Origin: a virus
DNA length: 23,454 bases
Strand: one strand, 5' to 3'
IMG/VR virus record: IMGVR_UViG_3300031857_001434
Span: 1 to 23,454 of that record
Shown: in pieces, positions 18,021-23,454 of the stretch
Numbering within the stretch: position 1 is the first letter of the stretch
Layout: every line of letters starts with the position of its first letter
The notes under the pieces: generated by a model
What the model saw: the letters and a program-made list of their open reading frames with translations, nothing else
What the model was told of the DNA's origin: nothing
Databases searched by the model: none
Program-made: the position numbers and the translations under genes

Positions 18021-18041
18021 GTCACCATACCTAGAAAAGCC

Positions 18042-18128
18042 GCATAACAAGGCGATGAACCGGAGCGGCTTCCACCGGTCCCCGCATGGAAAAACAACCG
18101 TCCGCCCGGTTATCGCCGGGCGTTCTGC
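18042..18128 (+). repeat. attC-1 recombination site
   Basis: Left core GCATAAC (18042-18048), right core GTTCTGC (18122-18128). Arms GGCGAT-G-AACCGG and CCGGTTATCGCC pair with one unpaired G on the left arm. The loop is about 40 bases and includes the TTCCACCGG stretch. The next gene's stop begins at the base right after the right core. Confidence 0.85.
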
Positions 18129-18344
18129 CTACTCTGAAACCTGACGCCTTTTTGCTTCGCGACGTGCTTTCCGCAGCAGTGCGGGCAAGGCCCACTCAAC
18201 CATTGACTGACCGGCGGCATCAGCAGCCGCCCTCAGCTCGTCCCAGTCGTCATCTGAAATCCGCCCGAACTGGCGAGCGGGGTTCGGGTTGTACGCTCCG
18301 CGTTCTGTTGCGGGGCGGCCGCGTTTGTTATTCGTCATCATCAT
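18129..18344 (-). CDS. Cassette 2 small DNA-binding protein (AT-hook plus ribbon-helix-helix-like)
   Basis: A 71-residue basic protein. An AT-hook-like NKRGRPATERG stands near the N-terminus. A segment GRISDDDWDELRAAADAAGQSMVEWALPALLRKARRE at about 27-63 follows, with the strand-helix-helix pattern of Arc/MetJ-type ribbon-helix-helix repressors. It probably binds DNA as a dimer; the target is unknown. It ends exactly at the attC-1 right core and overlaps the preceding gene's 3' end by 17 bases, so it is translationally coupled. Three ATG codons in a row occur at the start (18344, 18341, 18338). The shared transcript with two more ORFs makes this a multi-gene cassette. Confidence 0.7.
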   Translation of the reverse strand: MMMTNNKRGRPATERGAYNPNPARQFGRISDDDWDELRAAADAAGQSMVEWALPALLRKARREAKRRQVSE

Positions 18345-18702
18345 CTCCGTGGCATCCGCAAATCACACAGCCAGAGTCGTATCTATACCCAGCATCCGAC
18401 GCCTTTTCATACACCTCACAATTTGAAAGAGGACGCCGCGACTTCTCAACGAACACAGAAACACAGCCTTTACGCTTATCTTTGCTTTCCCATGTGCATT
18501 CAATGGCGTATTCATAAACGACCCGGCTCGAAACAATTTCACCCAGCGAAACACTGTCGTACGCCTCTCTCAGAGACATTGACTTCAAATCTTTTGCCAT
18601 TCCGCACCCCTCGCAAAAGCCAGCCTCCCATTCTTCGAGAGACTGGCGACAACTGGCACACATCACGCCATGCTCATTGCATCCGCCATTGTGGACGCCC
18701 AT
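18328..18702 (-). CDS. Cassette 2 zinc-ribbon protein
   Basis: A 124-residue protein has an N-terminal four-Cys knuckle pair (CASC at about residues 15-18 and CEGC at about 32-35) and ends with CVICGCHGDDDDE, another Cys/His cluster with an acidic tail. The middle region, VVYEYAIECTWESKDKRKGCVSVFVEKSRRP, looks beta-stranded. I chose ATG 18702, which has GTGAGAG upstream; a later ATG at 18663 overlaps the upstream gene's stop as TGATG and would give 111 residues. The function is unknown; a nucleic-acid or metal-binding role is plausible. It lies between two other small genes of the same cassette and overlaps both. Confidence 0.6.
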   Translation of the reverse strand: MGVHNGGCNEHGVMCASCRQSLEEWEAGFCEGCGMAKDLKSMSLREAYDSVSLGEIVSSRVVYEYAIECTWESKDKRKGCVSVFVEKSRRPLSNCEVYEKASDAGYRYDSGCVICGCHGDDDDE

Positions 18703-18863
18703 CCGACTCTCACTTCGTTTTTGAAAATCCACCATTCTGACTTTCGCCCCTTGCTGTCGCCTCGGCACACTCGAAGATTGTCGTCACCCTTTTTGGCGAA
18801 CCACATTCCTTCAGAGTCTGAGTATTCCCACTTGATCCCGTTTTCGTTTCGTGTTCGGCTCAT
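18663..18863 (-). CDS. Cassette 2 small protein, unknown function
   Basis: A 66-residue protein rich in Trp, Lys, Asp and Gly: GIKWEYSDSEGMWFAKKGDDNL, then SEWWIFKNEVRVGWASTMADAMSMA. The alternating aromatic residues suggest one small beta sheet followed by a short helix; no family is recognised. It is the first gene of its cassette. ATG 18863 is preceded by GAGAG, and a very good promoter lies 45-72 bases upstream. The stop TGA is shared with an internal ATG of the next gene (TGATG). Confidence 0.65.
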   Translation of the reverse strand: MSRTRNENGIKWEYSDSEGMWFAKKGDDNLRVCRGDSKGRKSEWWIFKNEVRVGWASTMADAMSMA

Positions 18864-18907
18864 GTCTCTCGCTCCCGTGTTTAGTGTTGTGTTCGGCACT
18901 GACAGCA

Positions 18908-18935
18908 ATTCTATCGTCCCGTTCTTTGTTGTCAA
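18908..18935 (-). promoter_or_regulatory. Cassette-borne sigma70 promoter
   Basis: On the minus strand TTGACA (18935-18930, a perfect -35) and TAGAAT (18913-18908) are spaced by 16 bases. It lies in the 128-base gap between attC-2 and the first gene of cassette 2, the only cassette with such a leader. It would drive cassettes 2 and 1 independently of the array promoter. Confidence 0.75.
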
Positions 18936-18990
18936 TACAACAAATACGGATTTAGAAAAGGTTTTTCAGAAACTTTCCACAACAGGAGAG

Positions 18991-19080
18991 GCAGAACAAA
19001 GCGTTGAACCGGAACCGCGAACAACCCGTTTTCAGAATCGACGTCAACCGCTCGCGGTCCGGTTAACGCCGTCGTTATGC
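18991..19080 (+). repeat. attC-2 recombination site
   Basis: Left core GCAGAAC (18991-18997), right core GTTATGC (19074-19080). Left arm GCGTT-G-AACCGG-A-ACCGCGA against TCGCGGTCCGGTTAACGC leaves exactly two unpaired bases on the left arm, the classical attC pattern. The loop carries the shared GTTTTCAGAAT motif. Confidence 0.88.
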
Positions 19081-19083
19081 GGA

Positions 19084-19302
19084 CTAATCGACCCGCCATC
19101 CATCGGCAAGCATTTCGTCCGATGAACTGTACTGAATAAACCTCCCTGTTCCTCCGTCCCACACGTATCCAAGATTTACGTCCCAACATCCCTGAATCAC
19201 GAAACCATGCTGACGCTCACCATCTCGATTACGGATGACGCACAAGTATCGACCACCATCTGCAAAACATGGCCACTCAGACACGCTCAATAATTGACTC
19301 AT
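19084..19302 (-). CDS. Cassette 3 protein, unknown function
   Basis: A 72-residue protein with short strands separated by Gly/Asp turns: SEWPCFADGGRYLCVIRNRDGERQHGFVIQG, then WDVNLGYVWDGGTGRFIQYSSSDEMLADGWRVD. It is probably a small all-beta domain ending in a helix; no family is recognised. GGAGGG immediately before ATG 19302 is a strong ribosome binding site, squeezed into the 14 bases between the gene and attC-3. The stop TAG is 3 bases past the attC-2 right core, so the cassette holds almost nothing besides gene and attC. Confidence 0.7.
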   Translation of the reverse strand: MSQLLSVSEWPCFADGGRYLCVIRNRDGERQHGFVIQGCWDVNLGYVWDGGTGRFIQYSSSDEMLADGWRVD

Positions 19303-19316
19303 AAACCCTCCAATCC

Positions 19317-19405
19317 GCATAACAAAAAAATGCACCGGAGTTGCCGTCCGGCTGTTTTCTCATCGATACTCACCGGCGGCAACCCGGTGATTTTGTGCGT
19401 TATCC
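19317..19405 (+). repeat. attC-3 recombination site
   Basis: Left core GCATAAC (19317-19323), right core GTTATCC (19399-19405). Left arm AAAAT-G-CACCGG-A-GTTGCCG against CGGCAACCCGGTGATTTT again leaves a G and an A unpaired on the left side only. Confidence 0.88.
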
Positions 19406-19744
19406 GCACTGATGAGCAACCAACAAATGAACGCGAAAGTCTTCCGCTGACTCATAAATCGTATCACAACAGATCGCGCCCTTCGGTTCCCATTCGTAAT
19501 CATTGTCGATCCACCGGAACCCAGCCGCGTCTCCGAGCACCATCCCCATAGCTTCCCATGGGTCAGCATAAAACGTCGCGTGGCCTGGGCCGGCGTGAAT
19601 TTGCCACAGTTCCCTGCCACTGACCGGAAAAACGATTCCGTTTAACCACGGACCATCCATCCGGTTTTTCCATTGGAACCGCTGTGGAAGGCGGATAACA
19701 AGGCGTTGCACGGGAGCCGTCGGTTCAGCGTTTTCAGAATGCAT
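19400..19744 (-). CDS. Cassette 4 protein whose start lies inside attC-4
   Basis: A 114-residue protein of unknown function. Residues 1-17 (MHSENAEPTAPVQRLVI) are encoded by the loop and left arm of attC-4; the rest is cassette-specific. Visible pieces include DGPWLNGIVFPVSGRELWQIHAGPGHATFYADPWEAMGMVLG and a C-terminal AICCDTIYESAEDFRVHLLVAHQCG, which with its Cys and His residues could be a degenerate zinc finger. GGAGGAG, 7 bases before ATG 19744, is one of the best ribosome binding sites in the window and lies inside the attC. The stop TAA is the first three bases of the cassette (TTA of the attC-3 right core). Confidence 0.7.
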   Translation of the reverse strand: MHSENAEPTAPVQRLVIRLPQRFQWKNRMDGPWLNGIVFPVSGRELWQIHAGPGHATFYADPWEAMGMVLGDAAGFRWIDNDYEWEPKGAICCDTIYESAEDFRVHLLVAHQCG

Positions 19745-19784
19745 AGTTTTACTCCTCCGGCCACGTGAACGCCGGGCGTTATCC
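19693..19784 (+). repeat. attC-4 recombination site (contains a gene start)
   Basis: Left core GGATAAC (19693-19699), right core GTTATCC (19778-19784). Arms GGCGTT-G-CACGGG and the complement of CACGTGAACGCC pair with one unpaired G on the left. The loop contains the shared GTTTTCAGAAT and, on the minus strand, the ribosome binding site and ATG of the cassette 4 gene. Confidence 0.85.
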
Positions 19785-19785
19785 G

Positions 19786-19968
19786 TCAGACTTGTTTGGC
19801 AACGTCATGAGGACGGTATTTGATTCGCTGCGACTCTTTGTGAATACGACATACACAAGAATGACCGGTTGACTTCTCTGGTTCCCAATTATCCAAATCA
19901 CAATTGCACCGCATCCCATCGGCCTTCAGTTTACTTGCGATCTCTCTCAAGGTTCTTTCGTCCTGCAT
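19786..19968 (-). CDS. Cassette 5 Cys-containing small protein
   Basis: A 60-residue protein: an N-terminal helix (MQDERTLREIASKLKADG) is followed by a Cys/His-rich core, CNCDLDNWEP then GHSCVCRIH, and a basic tail (KESQRIKYRPHDVAKQV). Four cysteines in two C-x-C pairs suggest metal binding, although the spacing is not that of a standard zinc ribbon. The frame extends upstream to a GTG inside attC-5, but no ribosome binding site supports that. ATG 19968 with GGTG is more likely. The stop is 1 base past the attC-4 right core. Confidence 0.6.
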   Translation of the reverse strand: MQDERTLREIASKLKADGMRCNCDLDNWEPEKSTGHSCVCRIHKESQRIKYRPHDVAKQV

Positions 19969-19986
19969 AGCGTCACCACAAACGAC

Positions 19987-20079
19987 GGATAACAAAGCGG
20001 TGAACACGGAGCCGCCGATCTGCCGTGTTCACAAATCCGAGCCTCTTGTCGGCGGCCCGGTTACCGCTGGTCGTTATGC
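19987..20079 (+). repeat. attC-5 recombination site
   Basis: Left core GGATAAC (19987-19993), right core GTTATGC (20073-20079). Left arm AGCGGT-G-AACACGGAGCCGCCG folds on CGGCGGCCCGGTTACCGCT with the extra bases again on the left. It lacks the GTTTTCAGAAT loop motif and has its own loop. Confidence 0.86.
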
Positions 20080-20361
20080 GGACACCATTTCCGCGTCGAT
20101 TGCAGCATCAAGCCGATCGTGTGACGGGCAATCATGCCCAAGCTTTACCGATGTTTTTGGGTTTACCACGACACCGAGAACGCCATCATTCCAGTTCTGC
20201 GAACGCAACCACCTGTATCTGGCAGCGTCCGTGCGTATTGCTTCTTCCAGATCGGCAACCCTCGCCATCAGTGCATTGTGGGCTTTTGCAATTCGTGCTG
20301 TTCCAAAATGCTCTACTTCCGCATTGAGTGCGAACTCTGTCCATTGTCTGCTGAAATCCAT
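20074..20361 (-). CDS. Cassette 6 small helical protein (phage-type)
   Basis: A 95-residue protein: helices in the first half (WTEFALNAEVEHFGTARIAKAHNALMARVADLEEAIRTDAARYRWLRSQNW) and a compact C-terminal part ending SHDRLDAAIDAEM. The 'DAARYRWLR ... LDAAIDAEM' combination is one I associate with small accessory proteins found in phages and prophages; its function is not known. ATG 20361 has GAGGG four bases upstream and lies 13 bases from attC-6. A longer reading from a TTG in attC-6 (20382) is unlikely. The stop TAA is the first three bases of the cassette. Confidence 0.72.
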   Translation of the reverse strand: MDFSRQWTEFALNAEVEHFGTARIAKAHNALMARVADLEEAIRTDAARYRWLRSQNWNDGVLGVVVNPKTSVKLGHDCPSHDRLDAAIDAEMVSA

Positions 20362-20373
20362 GCTACCCTCGCC

Positions 20374-20463
20374 GCATAACAAAGCATTCCACCGGAGTGC
20401 CGCACCATCCGTTTTCAGAATTCCACACCGGGCTGCGGCACCCGGTGAATGCTGTCGTTATTT
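20374..20463 (+). repeat. attC-6 recombination site (near-identical to attC-8)
   Basis: Left core GCATAAC (20374-20380), right core GTTATTT (20457-20463). Arms AGCATT-C-CACCGG-A-GTGCCGCA and the complement of TGCGGCACCCGGTGAATGCT pair with two unpaired bases. Over 81 bases it differs from attC-8 by a single base, and that base is the unpaired one (C here, G there). Confidence 0.88.
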
Positions 20464-20549
20464 TGACTAAACACTGTGACGCGACTTAGGCGGTGTCTTT
20501 CACCTGATTCCTGCGTTTCCTCACGGATAAGCCGTATCGCATCACTGAA

Positions 20550-20713
20550 GCATCGGACGGGAGTCGAACCCGCTGGCTGTTGATGTTTCCCACAAATCGC
20601 CCCAGTGAATAAATCACATGCCGCTGCGAAGCTACGGGAATCGAACCCATCCATCTCACGGTCAGACACTGGTTGTCTTTCGATTTGCTACGTTTCCCAC
20701 ACGTCGCCGATGC
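20550..20713 (-). ncRNA. tRNA-like RNA with two T-arm motifs (possible tRNA remnants)
   Basis: On the minus strand the ends GCATCGG (20713-20707) and CCGATGC (20556-20550) are perfectly complementary over 7 bp, like an acceptor stem. A canonical T arm, GCGGG-TTCGACT-CCCGT, stands directly before the 3' strand. A second T arm, ATGGG-TTCGATT-CCCGT, lies 77 bases upstream. A GTGGGAAAC motif inside a small hairpin occurs twice (20700-20692 and 20593-20585). CAAATCG and CGATTTG can form an inner helix. I could not assign a normal anticodon arm, and no CCA is encoded, so this may be a degenerate tRNA pair, a tRNA with an insertion, or another structured RNA. It starts 8 bases after the cassette 7 gene's stop. 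Confidence 0.45.
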
Positions 20714-20720
20714 AACACAT

Positions 20721-20912
20721 CTATGACTTACTGAATCCAATTTCGCGAAGCGTTTTGATCGCTTCCACCAATTTCTGAATGTCCTTTTCCTCTGGCTGAA
20801 ACCGAAGACTGTTCCAGTACCAATCCAGTCCCAGTCTTTCAGAAAACGTGATTTCCGAATCGGTTTCCTCAGCCAGTTTCGCAATCTGTCGAAATGAATG
20901 CTTTAGTCCCAT
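20721..20912 (-). CDS. Cassette 7 small helical protein, unknown function
   Basis: A 63-residue acidic protein, MGLKHSFRQIAKLAEETDSE then FSERLGLDWYWNSLRFQPEEKDIQKLVEAIKTLREIGFSKS, predicted as two or three helices around an aromatic centre (LDWYWNSLRF). No family is recognised. GGAG six bases before ATG 20912 supports translation. A longer overlapping frame (20486-20884) runs through the tRNA-like element and is rejected as a shadow. The cassette differs from the others by a 250-base non-coding tail holding the tRNA-like RNA. Confidence 0.68.
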   Translation of the reverse strand: MGLKHSFRQIAKLAEETDSEITFSERLGLDWYWNSLRFQPEEKDIQKLVEAIKTLREIGFSKS

Positions 20913-20928
20913 CAGAACTCCGAAAGCA

Positions 20929-21020
20929 AAATAACAAGGCATTGCACACGGAGTTACGGTCCGCGCTGACTCAGAATTCCATATCCACCGGCCGCAACCC
21001 GGTTAACGCCGTCGTTATCG
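20929..21020 (+). repeat. attC-7 recombination site (imperfect arms)
   Basis: Left core AAATAAC (20929-20935, less typical), right core GTTATCG (21014-21020). Left arm GGCATT-G-CACACGG pairs only partly with CCGGTTAACGCC, so this site looks like a hybrid of two attC types. The loop contains TCAGAATTCCA, related to attC-6 and attC-8. Confidence 0.75.
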
Positions 21021-21024
21021 TGAC

Positions 21025-21234
21025 TCAATACCGAATATTCAGCCACCTACGGGAAGTGGACAACTCAAACCCTAGAATGCGAGCGTCTATTTTCTTTTGT
21101 TCGCATACAATCCGTTCTCCCACTATTACAGGAATCGCTGGTTTGACGCGAATCATTCGCCTGTCTTCATCCACCATAGCAATACATTTATGGCTATCGA
21201 TCGTCACTTCGCAGCCAAACATTTCGAACGACAT
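21025..21234 (-). CDS. Cassette 8 protein, unknown function
   Basis: A 69-residue beta-rich protein: MFGCEVTIDSHKCIAMVDEDRRMIRVKPAIPVIVGERIVCEQKKIDARILGFELSTSRRWLNIRY, read in pieces as MFGCEVTIDS, CIAMVDEDRRMIRVKP, VIVGERIVCEQKKID and ARILGFELSTSRRW. The regular alternation of hydrophobic and charged residues suggests a small barrel or sandwich; no family is recognised. It is the first cassette gene after the array promoter and so probably the most strongly expressed. GGGTGG precedes ATG 21234 at good spacing; the gene ends 4 bases past the attC-7 right core. Confidence 0.68.
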   Translation of the reverse strand: MSFEMFGCEVTIDSHKCIAMVDEDRRMIRVKPAIPVIVGERIVCEQKKIDARILGFELSTSRRWLNIRY

Positions 21235-21247
21235 TGAACCACCCGCA

Positions 21248-21338
21248 CGATAACAAAGCATTGCACCGGAGTGCCGCACCATCCGTTTTCAGAATTCCAC
21301 ACCGGGCTGCGGCACCCGGTGAATGCTGTCCCTTACGT
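21248..21338 (+). repeat. attC-8 recombination site with degenerate right core
   Basis: Left core CGATAAC (21248-21254), and arms and loop are identical to attC-6 except for one base. The expected right core after GCTGTC (ending 21330) is replaced by CCTTACG. A good core, GTTCTGC, is found 16 bases further at 21347-21353. The site may be inactivated, or an insertion may separate arm and core. Confidence 0.8.
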
Positions 21339-21395: not shown

Positions 21396-21423
21396 ACTAT
21401 ACAAAAATGAATAGTGGCGTCAA
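21396..21423 (-). promoter_or_regulatory. Array promoter (Pc-like)
   Basis: On the minus strand TTGACG (21423-21418) and TATAGT (21401-21396) are spaced by 16 bases, giving a strong sigma70-type promoter. It begins 5 bases after the recombinase stop and points into the cassette array, with the start point expected near 21389. There is no hairpin terminator between it and the first cassette. By position it plays the part of the cassette promoter of integrons. Confidence 0.75.
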
Positions 21424-21427
21424 GCCA

Positions 21428-22369
21428 TTATTTTGCAACCAATCTTTCTGCCGTGTCTGAAATGAGATTCTGCGCTTGTGGATCTAGACGGCGAAAATTC
21501 GTCAGCAAAGTTTCTTCAGCTCCTCCGGGTTTGTGATTTCCGAGCATCGCCGCAGGAACAGCCACACGAGGTGCGGCGGCCTGCAGCACGGTGAGCGGAT
21601 CCAGATAGTGCTGAAGCACCCCAATTCCGGAACCGTGAATTAGGCTACCAGCGGTGGCGTTCGCATTACTCCATTCATTTACAGAACGCTGCCGCATCAG
21701 TTTCGGATGGAAATACGTGACTCCGGCTGCCAAGCACGCCGCTTGCAAATGCTGCTTCAGGATTTTAGCGGTCCAGCCTTCAGCGTGTTGGTACGGTAAC
21801 TTATGCCGCACTGAAATGATTTCTGACAGCCATGCAGGAACCGGGTACTGATGCACATACCCGGTCTTGCTCGCTTCCCAGTACAGAACTGGGTCCGATG
21901 TCGGCAGGCTCAATTGCAACCTGAGTGAATCTCGCAGCCTGAGACCAGTCCACAGCGTCAGGGCGAGCCACTGTTGCAGCCATGGTGTGGCGTGCAGGTA
22001 CGCAGCGTTGATGGTTTCAAGTGCTACGGGTTTCGGCTTCGGCTTTGGTCGTCTCAATCGCTTTCCCGGGCTGAACGTCACACCAGTTGCAAACTTTATA
22101 ACCGTGCAGACATCGGTGATCGTTTTTTCGATGGTGACCGGAGAAAGGCAACTGGCCCGGCATCTTTCTCGAAATGCAGCCAGCATTTCGCTTTTGATGT
22201 CCGAGCATTGCTGAACCTGCATAACCCGCTCAAATCGCCTGCAATTTGAGGCGATCATGAAACTCCGCAAACCATTGGTGCGGACGTATTCTGCGGCCTG
22301 AAACGATAGAAACATGTGTGTGCTCCAAAAGTTGAGCACTCCTTCGCGAACCAGTTCCTTCACGCCCAT
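21428..22369 (-). CDS. Divergent tyrosine recombinase (phage-type integrase)
   Basis: A 313-residue enzyme that would cut and rejoin DNA through a tyrosine. Residues of about 50-105 look like the SAM-like core-binding domain (LSPVTIEKTITDVCTVIKF); the catalytic domain follows a basic linker (KRLRRPKPKPKP). Candidate catalytic residues: R144 in LWTGLRLRDSLRL, K168 in EASKTG, R226 in HPKLMRQRS, and Y255 in LQHYLDP. The usual H-x-x-R of box II reads K-L-M-R, with a His five residues before the Arg, and the usual G-H reads H-G, so the active site is atypical. The extra helix of IntI integrases between boxes is not seen, so I do not call it an integron integrase. ATG 22369 was chosen; a GTG at 22387 is possible. 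It ends just before the array promoter. Confidence 0.8.
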   Translation of the reverse strand: MGVKELVREGVLNFWSTHMFLSFQAAEYVRTNGLRSFMIASNCRRFERVMQVQQCSDIKSEMLAAFRERCRASCLSPVTIEKTITDVCTVIKFATGVTFSPGKRLRRPKPKPKPVALETINAAYLHATPWLQQWLALTLWTGLRLRDSLRLQLSLPTSDPVLYWEASKTGYVHQYPVPAWLSEIISVRHKLPYQHAEGWTAKILKQHLQAACLAAGVTYFHPKLMRQRSVNEWSNANATAGSLIHGSGIGVLQHYLDPLTVLQAAAPRVAVPAAMLGNHKPGGAEETLLTNFRRLDPQAQNLISDTAERLVAK

Positions 22370-22387
22370 GAAATCGCAGAGCGCCAC

Positions 22388-23427: not shown

Positions 23428-23454
23428 ACGCATGCTCCGCACTGGAGGCGGTCT

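Follow-up and report, generated by a model that had tools for sequence, protein, structure and literature searches.

The DNA analysed here, called the window throughout, is the whole 23,454-nt stretch at positions 1 to 23,454 of the IMG/VR virus record IMGVR_UViG_3300031857_001434, and it belongs to a tailed phage carrying a tRNA-like RNA inside an attC-bounded cassette array. Terminase, portal and head genes lie on the plus strand upstream of this array, which holds eight attC-like sites (18037-21330) and ORFs mostly on the minus strand. On its 3′ side, a phage-type recombinase (21428-22387) is followed by an HTH gene, and a putative promoter (TTGACG-16-TATAGT, 21396-21423, minus strand), a match to the consensus only, would read into the array. 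The recombinase matches only a general phage integrase PHROG; Pfam and NCBIfam gave no match, and the neighbouring IntI by which an integron cassette is recognised was not found. A search of genomes for relatives of this integrase, as a clue to the host, returned none. A further record, L044, is the continuation of the same phage, with 100% identity over 2,191 nt ending at an attC copy.

The cassette with the RNA is bounded by two plus-strand attC-like sites, one at 20924-21019 (repeat families D1 and D6) and the other at 20376-20461 (repeat family D2, 99% identical to 21250-21330); the repeats are attC-like, putative recombination sites. A neighbouring cassette (19778-20086) is 99% identical to positions 3465-3157 of the phage contig L048 exactly between the attC borders, while the structural genes of the two phages are only ~68% identical, which points to a recent cassette exchange between phages. 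Similar attC-like arrays with other cassettes occur in five related phages (L047, L048, L050, L045 and L046), and their ORFs are also mostly opposite to the canonical attC orientation. Integron pieces carried by phages have already been described (PMC9892861), and the window resembles those arrays in its attC-like sites around small ORFs and in the absence of an integrase recognised by Pfam or NCBIfam, whereas it differs in that most of its ORFs point against the direction usual for attC sites and that one cassette carries a tRNA-like RNA. The RNA shares its cassette with an adjoining upstream ORF of 73 aa (20721-20942, minus strand) that belongs to no known family and for which no relatives were found in viral contigs and phages; the 5′ end of the RNA lies 7 nt past the stop of this ORF.

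An earlier note on this DNA had described a 164-nt tRNA-like segment with duplicated T arms inside a cassette (20550-20713). The segment is real, and all the elements named there are present when it is read on the minus strand, from 20713 to 20550. Its acceptor-like ends, GCATCGG (20707-20713) and CCGATGC (20550-20556), pair 7/7, with no CCA after the 3′ strand. Two bases, C8 and G9 (20705-20706), link the acceptor to a D-like hairpin, D1 (ACGU-GUGGGAA-ACGU, 20690-20704), whose first pair is A-U. A canonical T arm, T2 (GCGGG-UUCGACU-CCCGU, 20557-20573), stands directly before the 3′ acceptor strand and is preceded by an A at the place of tRNA position 48 (A48). Between D1 and T2, where a tRNA has its anticodon arm, lies a domain of 116 nt (20574-20689, the last base being A48), hereafter the cargo. 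It contains the second T arm that had been placed 77 nt upstream, T1 (ATGGG-TTCGATT-CCCGT, 20634-20650), with a 5-bp stem and a TTCGATT loop; then AGCTTCG (20627-20633), the 3′ acceptor-like end of this internal copy, for which a 5′ partner was sought and none found; and finally a second GUGGGAA hairpin, D2 (GAUUU-GUGGGAA-ACAUC, 20582-20598), which shares the heptaloop of D1 and differs in its stem by a C-G to U-A change and one mismatch. The motif reported as repeated, GTGGGAAAC, is indeed present twice. The inner helix CAAATCG/CGATTTG that had been proposed also exists; it clashes with the second GUGGGAA hairpin, has no support from homologues and is not needed, and we treat it as a chance pairing. 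Both GUGGGAA hairpins were considered as Pro(GGG) anticodon arms, a reading that was dropped, the hairpin standing two bases after the acceptor in all members of the family described below.

The composite was found in a scan for T arm, acceptor and D arm over ~1.08 Mb of phage DNA (both strands), where canonical tRNAs measured 66-98 nt. Shuffling the upstream 190 nt produced an acceptor with a D arm in 1,035 of 200,000 trials (p ~0.005), and the free fold of the 164-nt segment is no better than that of shuffled sequences (z = -0.28). Taken alone, the composite is only modestly significant, and its significance comes from the homologues found later. Programs and models for tRNAs do not recognise it. 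ARAGORN in its default, relaxed, mitochondrial, intron and tmRNA modes found nothing credible in the window, and Rfam, at gathering and permissive thresholds, gave only a 16-bit partial match to tRNA-Sec. As for the checks against tRNA and tmRNA models suggested in the earlier note, the best RF00005 hit in the window scores 9.8 bits against a cut-off of 29 and covers the T arm alone, and neither ARAGORN nor Rfam calls a tmRNA in the window or in the 27 members described below. An anticodon arm is missing from the segment, as had been noted, and the RNA would be unable to decode mRNA.

Relatives were retrieved in several ways. A T-arm pattern fetched, from L008 and L030, a 74-nt RNA (z = -3.2) that folds into an acceptor, a GUGGGAA hairpin, a mini-hairpin and a T arm, and a pattern with a longer gap fetched the RNAs of L080 and L082, of 141-153 nt, which likewise begin with acceptor-CG-GCGU-GUGGGAA-ACGC. 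The common 17-mer of the first hairpin, CGRCGTGTGGGAAACGY, occurs at 41 loci in IMG/VR phage contigs. Of these, 39 are non-redundant, and in 27 of them the heptanucleotide directly preceding the motif pairs 7/7 with the one that follows a T arm further downstream. Of random anchors in the same DNA, 1.3% gave a 7/7 acceptor with a T stem, and 0.013% had a TTCRA T loop in addition; this comparison is a fair test of the existence of the family. All members come from metagenomic viral contigs without known hosts. The 17-mer gave no convincing member by BLAST in annotated phages and plasmids, a method that is weak for such short words; matches in a Halorubrum virus lay inside a CDS at 18.9 bits and were rejected. 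The duplicated form, searched for as D1-T1-D2, was found neither in viral contigs nor in 84,980 genomes. A T1-D2-T2 pattern was discarded, since most of what it matched was phage tRNA arrays whose D loop reads GGGAAAC. In L061 and L073, the first T arm of each match is closely followed by a tRNA-like stretch that recurs in both, contains GGGAAAC and a T arm, and is not called by ARAGORN; a paired change distinguishes the two T stems (GAGG/CCTC and GGGG/CCCC).

The family shares a chassis of 50 nt. Across the 27 members, all 432 of 432 base-pair cells are paired, and two-sided changes occur in 102 cells, at 12 of the 16 pairs, versus 26.3 cells in shuffles, values that 0 of 500 shuffles reach and whose effect size is partly selected because the members were chosen by acceptor and T-stem pairing. 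All seven acceptor pairs covary, as do four of the five pairs of the T stem, and sliding the partner strand by 1-3 columns lowers the pairing to 27-43%. The conservation of the first hairpin is in part a product of selection, because the search motif, by which most members were found, includes it; C8 and G9, a CG in every member, also lie inside that motif for most members and outside the looser patterns that fetched L008, and L080 and L082. Two features were not selected for: the base before the T stem is A48 in all 27, and the T loop begins with TTCRA in 23. A Levitt-type pair between U15 and A48 is possible in the members; one tandem copy of L091, whose loop differs, shows the usual Levitt pair of G15 with C48, a single case.

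In the window, the 5′ part reads GCATCGG-CG-ACGUGUGGGAAACGU, that is, the 7-bp acceptor, C8-G9 and a hairpin of the family form NCGU-GUGGGAA-ACGN (its first pair is G-C in the other 26 members), and the 3′ part has the T arm with its 5-bp stem, preceded by A48 and followed immediately by the acceptor strand. A covariance model (R2) built from 21 members, leaving out the window, L008, L030 and L086, recovers the window's RNA at full length with 57.7 bits (E = 1.9e-11). Under the model R1, the members that contain the motif and the stronger tandem copies reach 41-78 bits, and tRNA-rich control loci at most 33.5 bits; the weaker tandem copies score 32-34 bits, so that the weakest overlap with the background. 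The left-out score of the window falls inside the family range and above those controls (57.7 bits with R2 versus at most 33.5 with R1). The earlier note had made its case depend on a homologous segment with compensating base changes, and such homologues exist. Judged by sequence and covariation, the segment encodes one member of a widespread phage RNA family that keeps the ends and the elbow of a tRNA, and that we call elbow RNA.

Tandem copies of the RNA occur in L082, L091, L092 and L107, and in a weaker form in L105; both copies in L091 share the same acceptor, and an internal T arm is also present in the second copy of L082 and in the cargo of L091. The T arms of the window are doubled because its cargo holds parts of a second copy: the orphan T arm, its 3′ acceptor strand and the second GUGGGAA hairpin. 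The simplest account would be a tandem pair fused into one RNA with its outer stems intact, the cargo still bearing the trace of the fusion. The suggestion of two decayed tRNAs thus survives in part, as the cargo resembles a collapsed tandem pair of the family RNA, whereas the outer chassis is intact and conserved, so that decay alone does not describe the segment. The copy in this phage might then be a mere pseudogene, two tandem copies that recombined and are now decaying inside a captured cassette: its composite nature with the orphan AGCTTCG, the mismatch in the second hairpin, a fold no better than shuffles, and the absence of a copy from six records of this phage and its relatives all agree with this. 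We nevertheless regard it as unlikely, since the 7/7 acceptor, the first hairpin, A48 and T2 are intact, with two-sided differences from the relatives, and since the left-out model score stays within the family range. The window copy is a composite and may be decaying.

That the segment could be a split tRNA or one interrupted by an intron, which splicing would turn into a normal decoding tRNA, had also been considered. When introns are allowed, ARAGORN reports 'tRNAs' for 16 of the 27 elements, and true phage tRNAs with insertions are found in L007, L010, L016 and L023. These calls, however, have random isotypes and are absent from the window; an anticodon stem around the insert is found in 6 of the 27 members against 7.0 in shuffles, as expected by chance; the shortest member, of 72 nt, is too small for an intron; and the family has C8 and G14 in place of U8 and A14. 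We give this explanation almost no credence. The phage tRNAs just mentioned carry insertions of ~25-140 nt in the anticodon loop (L023 9270-9544, L016 1425-2310, L010 3404-5271 and L007 6504-6610), and the insert of an Arg tRNA in L023 resembles that of an Asp tRNA in the same contig, which may point to a small intron family. Other tRNA-like sequences lack a normal anticodon arm and go down to 57 nt (L062 6633-6689 and 9829-9874; L009 11312-11390). Phages with the elbow RNA also carry minihelices of an acceptor and a T arm, such as AGCCCGA-CACGGAGC-GCCGGTTCGACTCCGGC-ATCGGGC, on the minus strand of L044 (7362-7290, ~30 nt past the window end at 23454), L008 (2305-2282) and L030 (2563-2540); the one in L044 may alternatively represent an attP within the 3′ end of a tRNA.

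Between the first hairpin and the T arm, the members differ in the length of their cargo, from 24 to 197 nt, and the cargos cannot be aligned with one another. In the related phages L087 and L121, whose flanking genes are 82% identical, the chassis is kept and the cargo is replaced at the same locus. By contrast, the whole RNA is 94% identical between L094 and L100, which otherwise have no DNA similarity in the stretches compared. As a group, the cargos fold slightly better than shuffles (mean z -0.55, n = 30, standard error 0.17); the cargo of the window is no more structured than shuffles (z = +0.5). Matches of the cargo in antisense to its own locus are no longer than those given by shuffled sequence. 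In most loci the RNA and the genes beside it share a strand, with a distance that is often 9-30 nt, and among 69 neighbours there is no recurring gene.

An acceptor with a T arm is a minimal substrate of RNase P, and the enzymes of tRNA maturation recognise the elbow; we therefore propose that host tRNA enzymes release the RNA from the gene transcript. From 5′ to 3′ the RNA consists of the 7-bp acceptor, CG, the GUGGGAA hairpin that substitutes for a D arm, the cargo where a tRNA has its anticodon arm, the T arm and the acceptor 3′ strand, and it would be transcribed together with its flanking genes. RNase P of the host would cut the 5′ end and RNase Z or exonucleases would trim the 3′ end, probably followed by the addition of CCA, and the acceptor and T arm would let these enzymes release and stabilise an RNA whose cargo, which differs between phages, probably does the specific work. 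As a whole, this reading of a tRNA-elbow phage RNA that is cut out by host tRNA enzymes and acts through its cargo seems to us probable.

Its main rival, which we consider rather unlikely, makes the elbow nothing but a cutting signal in polycistronic phage transcripts, like the tRNA punctuation of mitochondria, and the cargo a neutral filler. The tight intergenic position on the strand of the genes, the lack of a constant neighbour and a cargo that is unconserved, replaced at one locus and weakly structured are what such punctuation would give. Against this, the cargo of most members stays at 50-110 nt and has not shrunk, compact as these genomes are. Moreover, the cargo remains 94% identical between L094 and L100, with a pair in one of its hairpins changed from G-C to A-U, and the cargos of L103, L100 and L090 fold better than shuffles.

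Non-decoding RNAs with the shape of a tRNA are known from plant viruses and among the Y RNAs. What is new here is a family, widespread among phages, that combines a conserved chassis with a replaceable cargo, is missed by tRNA finders and matches no family in Rfam 15; it is apparently undescribed, as we found no publication on it in a search that covered few subscription papers. It suggests that in phages the shape of a tRNA serves to carry other RNA, with exchangeable cargo. If this is true, the family would open up a class of viral RNAs, regulatory or anti-defence, that is new, and the function of phage tRNA-like genes becomes testable, since chassis and cargo can be changed separately in phages. 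The segment may also be, as the earlier note suggested, a tRNA mimic that acts in phage-host conflict.

Compared with known systems, the elbow RNA is close to class II tRNAs (Leu/Ser) in its 7-bp acceptor, its GCG..CGC D-type stem two bases after the acceptor, its TTCRANT-loop T arm directly before the acceptor strand, and an A that is often found at 73. It departs from them in that an anticodon arm is missing, C8/G9 and G14 stand where tRNAs have U8 and A14, the cargo measures 24-197 nt, the score stays below the RF00005 cut-off and no CCA is encoded. YrlA has a tRNA-like domain, and competitive inhibition of an anticodon nuclease has been proposed for it (PMC7790460); the elbow RNA could by analogy be a phage Y RNA, in which the tRNA-like module would bring in a nuclease or inhibit one that cuts anticodons, and the other module would bind a Ro-like protein. 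Both are non-decoding RNAs that mimic tRNA, with D- and T-like arms and a second module (PMC7790460 and general knowledge). This explanation is nonetheless quite improbable: the YrlA model RF02553 has no match in the window or, at cut-off, in 14 family loci (12.9 bits against 69 in L082, E 8.8), no Ro or TROVE gene was found among the 69 neighbouring proteins, and the second module is unconserved. The tRNA-Other of Bacillus cereus is a pseudo-tRNA, tRNA-like, inactive in translation and tied to a mobile element (PMC3399842), traits it shares with the elbow RNA; its abstract describes no cargo, and it is a single bacterial locus, in contrast to a widespread phage family. A tmRNA likewise replaces the anticodon arm by a long insert held between tRNA-like ends, whereas the elbow RNA is much shorter, with no conserved pseudoknots or tag frame seen; a tmRNA gene with the tag VNGESYIDADGNIVFEGQSVEFADLEVA was observed in the phage contig L083 (2803-3182). 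Finally, the artificial 'tRNA scaffolds' of biotechnology copy just such a design, and, as a tentative view to which we lean slightly less than to its opposite, the elbow RNA might be a natural counterpart: a chassis matured by host tRNA enzymes that displays exchangeable cargos acting on the host or on rival phages, and that moves between phages as a unit of its own, here even inside an integron-type cassette.
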